Assembly (NCBI RefSeq): GCF_030373245.1
Contig: NZ_JAUCZF010000004.1
Span: forward strand, 1-64,000
Direction of reading: 5' to 3'
Length of the DNA stretch: 64,000 bases
DNA from: Hydrogenophaga sp.
Lineage (GTDB): Bacteria; Pseudomonadota; Gammaproteobacteria; Burkholderiales; Burkholderiaceae_C
Position numbers and translations under genes: made by a program. Shown here piece by piece: positions 43,288-45,567 of this stretch; position 1 is the first letter of the stretch; each line of letters starts with the position of its first letter. The notes beneath the pieces were generated by a model. It ran no database searches, was not told the DNA's origin, and saw only the letters and a program-made list of their open reading frames with translations.

Positions 43288-43542
43288 ATGAAAACGAAGC
43301 ACAGCAAGACCCTGCGCGCGATTTTTGCCAGGCCCACGCTGCCGTCCATCGTTTTCGCGGACATCGAAGCCCCGATCGTGGCGTTGGGTGGCGAAGTGCA
43401 TGAGCGCGAAGGCTCACGCGTCAAGCTGGAGTTGCGTGGTGAGCAGTGGCGCTGCCATCGCCCGCACCCAGGCAAAGAAGCCAAGCGCTACCAGGTGGAA
43501 GAGGTCAGAGAACTGCTAGAACGAATCGGAGCGCAACCATGA
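43288..43542 (+). CDS. hicA: HicA-type toxin
   Basis: 84 aa dsRBD-like HicA; LELRGEQWRCHRPHPGKEAKRYQVEEVRELLERIG; overlaps hicB by ATGA. Confidence 0.8.
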   Translation: MKTKHSKTLRAIFARPTLPSIVFADIEAPIVALGGEVHEREGSRVKLELRGEQWRCHRPHPGKEAKRYQVEEVRELLERIGAQP

Positions 43543-43871
43543 ACACCATGCAATACCAAGGCTACACCGCACGCATCGAGTTTGACGAGCGCGACAGCAT
43601 TTTTGTGGGCCGCGTGCTTGGCCTGCGCAGCATCATCAGTTTCCACGGCGACACCGTGGCACAGCTGCGCAGCGAGTTTGAAGCGGCTGTGGACGACTTC
43701 CTGCAAGACTGCAAGGCGCAAGGCATCAAACCCGAGAAGCCCGCGTCCGGCAAGCTGATGCTGCGCGTGCCGCCCGAGGTGCACGGCGCTGCCATCGTGG
43801 CCGCCCAGGCGTCGGGCAAGAGCCTGAATCAATGGGCGACTGAGGTGTTGCAGGATGCGGCGCAGGTCTGA
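43539..43871 (+). CDS. hicB: HicB-type antitoxin
   Basis: YQGYTARIEFDERDSIFVGRVLGLRSIISFHGDTVAQLRSEFEAAVDDFL...LMLRVPPEVHGAAIVAAQASGKSLNQWATEVL. Confidence 0.85.
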   Translation: MNTMQYQGYTARIEFDERDSIFVGRVLGLRSIISFHGDTVAQLRSEFEAAVDDFLQDCKAQGIKPEKPASGKLMLRVPPEVHGAAIVAAQASGKSLNQWATEVLQDAAQV

Positions 43872-43892
43872 ACCTCTGATCTTGCAGGGTCA

Positions 43893-43914
43893 AATTGGAA
43901 TCTGACCCCAATTT
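43893..43914 (-). repeat. 22-bp flanking repeat AAATTGGGGTCAGATTCCAATT (left, inverted)
   Basis: Exact inverted counterpart of the right copy with one mismatch. Confidence 0.85.
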
Positions 43915-43923
43915 CTCCCTAGT

Positions 43924-44124
43924 ATGGATAGGAAGCTGAGCACCGAGTTTGGTACGTGGCTCAAGAGCAACCCTAATGCACAAAATAACTACCTTACAGT
44001 CAATCAAGTCACCTCTGCCCTAAATCATTTCGCCAACACAGCACCAGGATTCACTGAGACATATGGGTCTACTCAGCAAATCCTAAATAATGTCAAAAGC
44101 CGAAGATTGGATGTGACAAAATAG
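43924..44124 (+). CDS. Small low-GC ORF, unknown; possibly 5'-truncated
   Basis: 66 aa ORF with strongly different base composition from surrounding genes; no obvious RBS. Confidence 0.4.
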   Translation: MDRKLSTEFGTWLKSNPNAQNNYLTVNQVTSALNHFANTAPGFTETYGSTQQILNNVKSRRLDVTK

Positions 44125-44130
44125 CAATCT

Positions 44131-44556
44131 ATGGCCAAACCCCTGCCCCCAATGAACCCTCTGAAAGCAGCCATAGTCCGGACAGGGATAATTGTATTAA
44201 TTTTTTTAATGTTATTATTAGGACCCCAAACCGATATGTCAGTTTCGGGCCGTGAACTGGTATTCTTTTCTGGGTTCAGTCTGATTGTGGTTTTGGTAAT
44301 AATGCTTATCTATGAGGGCATATCAGCAGCTATCTCTTCGCTAAAAACTCTTGCAGCTTCAATTATCTTGTTTATGCTTTCGTTAGCACTGACGGCTGTA
44401 GCTTACATCGGATTCTATTTTCTTCTATCGAAAGTTCCTGACGTATTTCTTCGAGGAACCTCCATTCCCTCAGTAGTAATCACCCAATTTGCTGCTACTC
44501 TACAGCTTTGTTTGACTTTTTTTTCTATTTCGAGATATGCGCCGCAAGAGGCCTAA
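44131..44556 (+). CDS. Small low-GC multi-TM membrane protein, unknown
   Basis: 141 aa with about four hydrophobic segments; AT-rich codon usage. Confidence 0.6.
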   Translation: MAKPLPPMNPLKAAIVRTGIIVLIFLMLLLGPQTDMSVSGRELVFFSGFSLIVVLVIMLIYEGISAAISSLKTLAASIILFMLSLALTAVAYIGFYFLLSKVPDVFLRGTSIPSVVITQFAATLQLCLTFFSISRYAPQEA

Positions 44557-44600
44557 GAGCTAGATGCCGTTTTGAAGAGGGCTTCAGCTGCTTCACGGGG

Positions 44601-44622
44601 AAATTGGGGTCGGATTCCAATT
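44601..44622 (+). repeat. 22-bp flanking repeat AAATTGGGGTCGGATTCCAATT (right)
   Basis: Inverted relative to 43893-43914, one mismatch. Confidence 0.85.
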
Positions 44623-44900
44623 TGGTAATTTCACTATCAACACCTCAGTAAGATCATTTTTTGCCCATCCCTCGAACCGCTGACTCACGCCTCTCGGTCA
44701 CCTCACCGCCAACTTCATGCCCCGCCCACCCTTCACGCATTGGCGCCCCGCCGCACACGCCAGCCTCGCGTTAGCTGCATGCCTTGTCGCTGGTTGGCTG
44801 GCCCAAACAGCAATGAGCCATCAACGCCAAGGCGAGCGACAACTGCAACAGGCGCTTTCCCAGTCGCTGCAGCCGCGCGGCGAAATCAGGAAATTGAGGA

Positions 44901-44946
44901 AATTGGGGTCAGATTCCAATTCGGCGAATGGGGTCAGACTCCGATC
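44901..44946 (+). repeat. Two further copies: AATTGGGGTCAGATTCCAATT (44901-44921) and degenerate AATGGGGTCAGACTCCGAT (44928-44946)
   Basis: Same core as the flanking repeats. Confidence 0.75.
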
Positions 44947-44952
44947 AATCGC

Positions 44953-45261
44953 TCAAGCCGCTTCCGCGTGCAACCTCACCCCCAGCGCCTTCGCCACCTT
45001 GAGCACCGTGGCCAGGCTGGGGTTGCCGTTTTCGCTCAGCGCTTTGTAGAGGCTTTCGCGGCTCAGGCCGCTGTCCCGGGCGACCTGGGTCATGCCTTTG
45101 GCTCGGGCAATGTCGCCCAGTGCGCGGGCGATGCCGGCGGCGTCGTCGGGTGCGTCGCTGAGCCAGGCGTCGAGGTAGGCGGCCATTTCTTCCGGTGTGC
45201 GCAGCTGTTCGGCGACATCGTAGGCCATGGTCTGGGTCTTCTGGGCAGGGTTCTGGGTCAT
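44953..45261 (-). CDS. higA: HigA-like addiction-module antidote
   Basis: MTQVARDSGLSRESLYKALSENGNPSLATVLKVAKALGVRL HTH. Confidence 0.85.
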   Translation of the reverse strand: MTQNPAQKTQTMAYDVAEQLRTPEEMAAYLDAWLSDAPDDAAGIARALGDIARAKGMTQVARDSGLSRESLYKALSENGNPSLATVLKVAKALGVRLHAEAA

Positions 45262-45279
45262 GGCTGGCTCCTGTGTTTC

Positions 45280-45567
45280 CTAAAGGTGGCGGGCGAGTTC
45301 AAGCGCCGCCTCGATGTCTTGGCGCTGGCTGGACTTGTCGCCGCCAGCCAGCAGAATGATCAGCTCCCCGTTGCGTTCTGTGTAGTAAACACGATAGCCA
45401 GGACCCACATCGATCTTGAGTTCAGAGACGCCCTCGGTCAGGCGCCGGACTTGCCCTGGGTTGCCGTGCACCAGCCTGTCAACGCGTACCTGAATCCGCG
45501 CACGCGTGGTTCGGTCTCGCAATGCGTTGATCCAGTCCCGATAGGTTTCAGTCAGCTGCACACGCAT
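45280..45567 (-). CDS. higB: HigB/RelE-superfamily addiction-module toxin
   Basis: RDWINALRDRTTRARIQVRVDRLVHGNPGQVRRLTEGVSELKIDVGPGYRVYYT...LLAGGDKSSQ. Confidence 0.88.
   Translation of the reverse strand: MRVQLTETYRDWINALRDRTTRARIQVRVDRLVHGNPGQVRRLTEGVSELKIDVGPGYRVYYTERNGELIILLAGGDKSSQRQDIEAALELARHL

Follow-up and report, generated by a model that had tools for sequence, protein, structure and literature searches.

TIRYTs are RAYT-like transposases of the Y1/HUH type. Enzymes of the HUH superfamily cut single-stranded DNA and seal it again, and a short guide sequence adjacent to the target determines where they do so (PMC8266576). In TIRYT/TIRtron elements, according to the available part of Di Nocera et al. 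2013 (PMC3733652), the Y1 gene is flanked by inverted repeats, the TIRs, which share the sequence GGGGWSAS and which also occur dispersed as single copies, as dimers or in groups. The available part of Quentin et al. 2018 (PMC6006769) places TIRYT-type enzymes mostly in TnpAY1 subclass 2.1. In RAYT/REP/REPIN systems a single transposase is likewise linked to short repeats, which are also found paired in inverted orientation, as dimers that form long hairpins. The Y1 gene with flanking inverted repeats, the GGGGWSAS sequence, the dispersed copies and the hairpin-forming dimers have counterparts in the genome described here. It also contains TIRs whose GGGG ends face inward around an AT-rich cargo and TIRs that lie at gene breakpoints, neither of which is described in the available parts of the two TIRYT papers (PMC3733652, PMC6006769).

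The window analysed is a stretch of 64,000 nucleotides from Hydrogenophaga sp., whose draft genome comprises 3.86 Mb in 10 contigs and is 90.85% complete. An initial annotation had described a low-GC segment at positions 43893-44622, bracketed by 22-bp repeats that are inverted on the left and carry one mismatch on the right, with a 66-aa ORF and a small membrane protein inside. This description holds in each respect. The repeat, AAATTGGGGTCAGATTCCAATT, has three matches (Table 1), where none is expected by chance (0 in 100 shuffles); the third copy, exact and at 44900, had been overlooked, as had a degenerate fourth at 44930. In 300-bp windows between the outer 22-mer copies the GC content ranges from 0.39 to 0.47; the window as a whole and the genome are both at about 0.65. 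The segment itself, at about 0.42 in a genome of 0.65, is as sharply unlike its flanks as had been reported, and is presumably horizontally acquired DNA. A search for a source of the segment among plasmids and phages gave no match, and no transposase domain was found within it, again as first described. Two toxin-antitoxin modules flank the segment (43288-45567), HicAB to its left and HigBA to its right. With the whole region of both modules and the segment as query, HicAB or HigBA modules were found only separately and were never seen adjacent in the family.

Table 1. Features of the AT-rich segment and its surroundings, with positions in the window
Feature	Position	Strand	Remark
HicA toxin, left neighbour outside the unit	43288..43542	+	PF07927
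HicB antitoxin, left neighbour	43539..43871	+	PF05534
Left 22-mer, solo TIR copy, no mismatch	43893..43914	-	GGGG end at 43909, directed rightward into the segment; matches host transposase TIR at C2:131375 and C2:132223
AT-rich segment, presumably horizontally acquired	43915..44600	+	GC about 0.42
66-aa ORF, no family match	43924..44124	+	upstream frame closed by a stop within the left repeat
141-aa predicted four-helix membrane protein, near-orphan	44131..44556	+	starts 7 nt after the 66-aa ORF
Right 22-mer, solo TIR copy, one mismatch	44601..44622	+	GGGG end directed leftward into the segment
GC-rich gene, apparent 5' fragment	44717..44890	+	cut off at the third TIR copy
Third TIR copy, no mismatch	44900..44921	+	preceded by stuttered junction aggaaattgaggaaattGGGG
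Degenerate fourth TIR copy, GGGGTCAGACTCCGAT	44930..44945	+	
HigA-like antidote protein, right neighbour	44953..45261	-	TIGR02684
HigB/RelE-family toxin, right neighbour	45280..45567	-	TIGR02683

The repeats had been likened to REP ends, with a RAYT-like transposase to be sought elsewhere, and this proved correct: they form a genome-wide family that is tied to a RAYT-like Y1 transposase on another contig than the window. The genome has a single match to PF01797 (C2:131472-131798), in a gene at C2:131433-132128 that encodes a protein of 232 aa and scores 83.7 bits against NF047646 (NCBIfam, REP-associated tyrosine transposase; cut-off 80). The gene is bracketed by inverted TIRs at C2:131375 (+) and C2:132223 (-) with GGGG outermost, and the same arrangement is seen in several congeners. 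With GGGGTCAG the TIR conforms to GGGGWSAS, and its 17-bp core is GGGGTCAGATTCCAATT. By sequence comparison, the 22-mers are solo copies of the TIR of the single-copy TIRYT of the host; the repeats themselves are thus of a known kind. The host system probably falls in TnpAY1 subclass 2.1, although the C-terminal HTH of that subclass was not detected by Pfam in the approximately 100 residues that extend beyond the Y1 domain. A close relative of the transposase is present in 33 of 35 congeners, with a similar downstream flank in several; we take the gene downstream to be gltB, from inspection.

When the genome and its relatives were searched for the repeat, the TIR core had 12 exact occurrences in the genome, against none for a reversed-pattern control, and was found in 13 of the 35 congeners; 24 genomes representing other families in the order had none. 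A slightly degenerate core occurs in 93 of 401 family genomes. The TIR dimer was absent from the plasmids searched, and there was one exact match to the motif in viral contigs. Some copies lie in pairs on either side of the transposase, spaced by about 800-850 bp; others make up tight inverted dimers, which form long hairpins, and others are solo copies. A solo copy forms a weak hairpin (-3.2 kcal/mol, z -1.7) and has a GGGG head, whereas in REPs of the GTAG type the head is GTAG or GTGG and a GC-rich palindrome comes after it. The GGGG ends face outward both in the transposase element and in the short dimers. At 43893-44622 they point inward, into the AT-rich segment, which is therefore not built like a deleted transposase element.

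Is this orientation peculiar to one locus? We surveyed 1.664 Mb (43% of this one draft genome, including every exact copy of the TIR core) for islands, defined by 300-bp windows below 0.47 GC; the GC thresholds were picked after the pattern had been seen. Such windows make up 0.41% of the total and form 21 islands. A TIR borders five of the 21, including five of the six with a GC of 0.45 or less; simple arithmetic (17 copies, 400-bp margins) gives an expectation of about 0.3 among the 21. In all five TIR-bordered islands the GGGG end of at least one TIR is directed into the island, at one end only in the islands other than the window segment. At eight of eight borders tested in three genomes the best GC change point was no more than about 75 bp from where the TIR begins. 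Around 15 TIRs of this genome the AT-rich DNA was on the GGGG side in six cases and on the other side in none (p=0.02). The association of inward-facing TIR copies with AT-rich joints is statistically strong in this genome. It may be a matter of local history and not a general property, since TIRs of other genera have no such polarity (AT-rich DNA on the GGGG side at 4 of 105, on the other side at 8) and show no clear enrichment of defence genes among 93 neighbouring ORFs, which gave a few helicase-type matches.

Some TIRs also coincide with breakpoints in genes. At C7:915 an internal piece of Rhs lies on the far side of the TIR, and its homology to the intact Rhs paralogue next door begins 3 bp past the repeat (92.8% over 610 bp). 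A few bases separate the GGGG end at C4:274725 from the start of an excalibur-domain gene fragment; a congener has the whole gene, which is 93% identical to the fragment. At 30 of 176 TIR sites, about 17%, the junction is stuttered; shuffling the flanks gave 0.3 such sites and swapping them 7.3. The stutter consists of short tandem repeats of the TIR's own flank plus GGGG, with breakpoints that vary within GGGGTCAG, and is strongly directional.

Several other loci deserve mention. At C4:270827-274857 (L023 2828-6872) there are six TIR copies in the same orientation within 4 kb, resembling a row of cassettes, and the unrelated segments between them carry a lipoprotein-like gene, a nucleotidyltransferase, an HTH regulator, a small AT-rich membrane protein and the excalibur fragment. 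Contig C7 contains two Rhs loci (L024 300-4951 and L026 2500-5001) with a TIR beside AT-rich small ORFs, and one of these loci has a displaced Rhs fragment. One gene, at L025 2180-2770 and with a metallopeptidase-like HELTHA motif, ends abruptly at a TIR, with no apparent continuation beyond it. An AT-rich stretch of one congener (L028 1-1600) encodes an OLD/AriA-like ATPase, of a defence type, next to a stuttered double TIR, which sits where an excalibur/cold-shock fusion gene has its 3' end.

Genes adjoining TIRs in this genome include those for a KAP-type NTPase (PADLOC PDC-S49, E 1e-159) and a nucleotidyltransferase-type protein (PDC-S09), as well as Rhs-associated small ORFs. The AT-rich KAP/PDC-S49 gene lies downstream of a gene that we take to be glnS, from reading its C-terminal sequence, and ends at a TIR whose GGGG end faces the gene. 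At the same spot in a second congener there is a likewise AT-rich gene for a DRT4 reverse transcriptase (E 6e-156), which also ends at a TIR with GGGG inward. These two loci (L023 6897-9499 and L086 1-2090) make the spot a candidate defence hotspot. As in the core defence hotspots of Pseudomonas aeruginosa, in the available part of their description (PMC10250203), different single defence genes occupy one conserved place; unlike those hotspots, each cargo here has one TIR border, in a comparison of two species.

The two ORFs of the window segment offer few clues to function. Searches of Pfam, NCBIfam, PHROG and PADLOC gave neither a significant match to a toxin or immunity family, and the 66-aa ORF had no homologues among the genome contigs searched. 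The 141-aa protein is hydrophobic. Structure prediction, which the initial annotation had recommended, gave a four-helix bundle (pLDDT 74, pTM 0.62), and the protein is predicted to lie in the membrane. A fold search with the model returned no significant match. Among 401 family genomes the protein has one remote relative, 27% identical and in another genus, and about 50 bp downstream of it is a TIR with two mismatches in the same orientation. Apart from this relative, neither the 401 family genomes nor 399 genomes of the order yielded a second copy of the segment. From their position alone, the 66-aa ORF is possibly the remnant C-terminus of a toxin-like protein and the 141-aa protein possibly an immunity protein.

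How did the AT-rich DNA come to lie between TIRs? On balance we think it probable that the segment is horizontally acquired DNA that was joined into the chromosome at solo TIRYT TIR copies, and we infer that the transposase made the joints. The HUH enzyme would nick single-stranded DNA at TIRs and then rejoin it, by which TIR copies would turn into preferred joints; foreign DNA would land on the GGGG side of a TIR, and truncated neighbouring genes and short stuttered repeats would be left behind. The cargo in the window would then be a possible leftover effector C-terminus and a membrane immunity-type protein. Nicking and rejoining at TIRs, if real, would account for where the breakpoints lie, for foreign DNA on the GGGG side and for the stuttered junctions. 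Against this explanation, neither an empty site nor a second copy nor an excision product was found. A search for empty sites through the phytase-like and M48 peptidase flanks did give matches, but no conserved neighbourhood in relatives; the flanking genes are not syntenic there, so no empty site was available for comparison. Or, were the TIRs inserted later, as ordinary REPs would be, into the edges of an ordinary acquired island? Secondary insertion into such tolerant intergenic DNA could have taken place: REPs are extragenic and mostly downstream of genes, according to the available part of PMC3733652, TIRs of other genera lie in DNA of ordinary composition, and no TIR was present near the HicAB and HigBA homologues fetched from elsewhere. 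Random later insertion predicts neither TIRs within a few bases of the Rhs and excalibur breakpoints nor an inward GGGG end at all five islands, and we regard this passive coincidence as rather unlikely, though the most serious competitor.

Homologous recombination between dispersed TIR copies on incoming DNA, with the transposase uninvolved, would also produce a mosaic. The row of six same-oriented TIRs at C4:270.8-274.9 kb with unrelated segments between them speaks for it, as does the close match of the excalibur fragment to a congener's gene. About 22 bp is short for efficient RecA-dependent exchange, which counts against it, and stuttered junctions are not expected from it; we give this origin little credence. 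Less credible still is that the segment is a true non-autonomous cassette, its 0.7 kb moved whole by the transposase acting in trans on two inward-facing TIRs. The initial annotation had suggested a non-autonomous mobile unit from the look of the repeats and the lack of a transposase inside. Matching inverted repeats at both ends and the presence of a transposase in trans would agree with it, as would the TIR-like motif after the remote relative of the 141-aa gene, in the same orientation. In MITE- or REPIN-like non-autonomous transposons, though, the terminal repeats are oriented as in the parent element, and here they run the opposite way from those of the transposase element and of the short dimers; the segment is single-copy; and elsewhere only one end of an island bears an inward TIR. 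These results do not support a mobile unit. We return to joining at solo TIR copies as the reading we prefer. It could be extended to a DNA-capture system in which a domesticated HUH transposase and dispersed TIRs splice foreign single-stranded DNA onto GGGG ends, so that the host gathers defence, immunity and toxin-antitoxin genes, but we hold this wider proposal to be improbable, if less so than the last two origins.

The role of RAYT and TIRYT proteins in their hosts is a long-standing question. If TIR copies mark or make entry joints for defence and immunity genes, this would give domesticated transposases a role that can be tested. If true, the TIRs would also serve as a sequence handle for finding foreign defence and immunity cargo.
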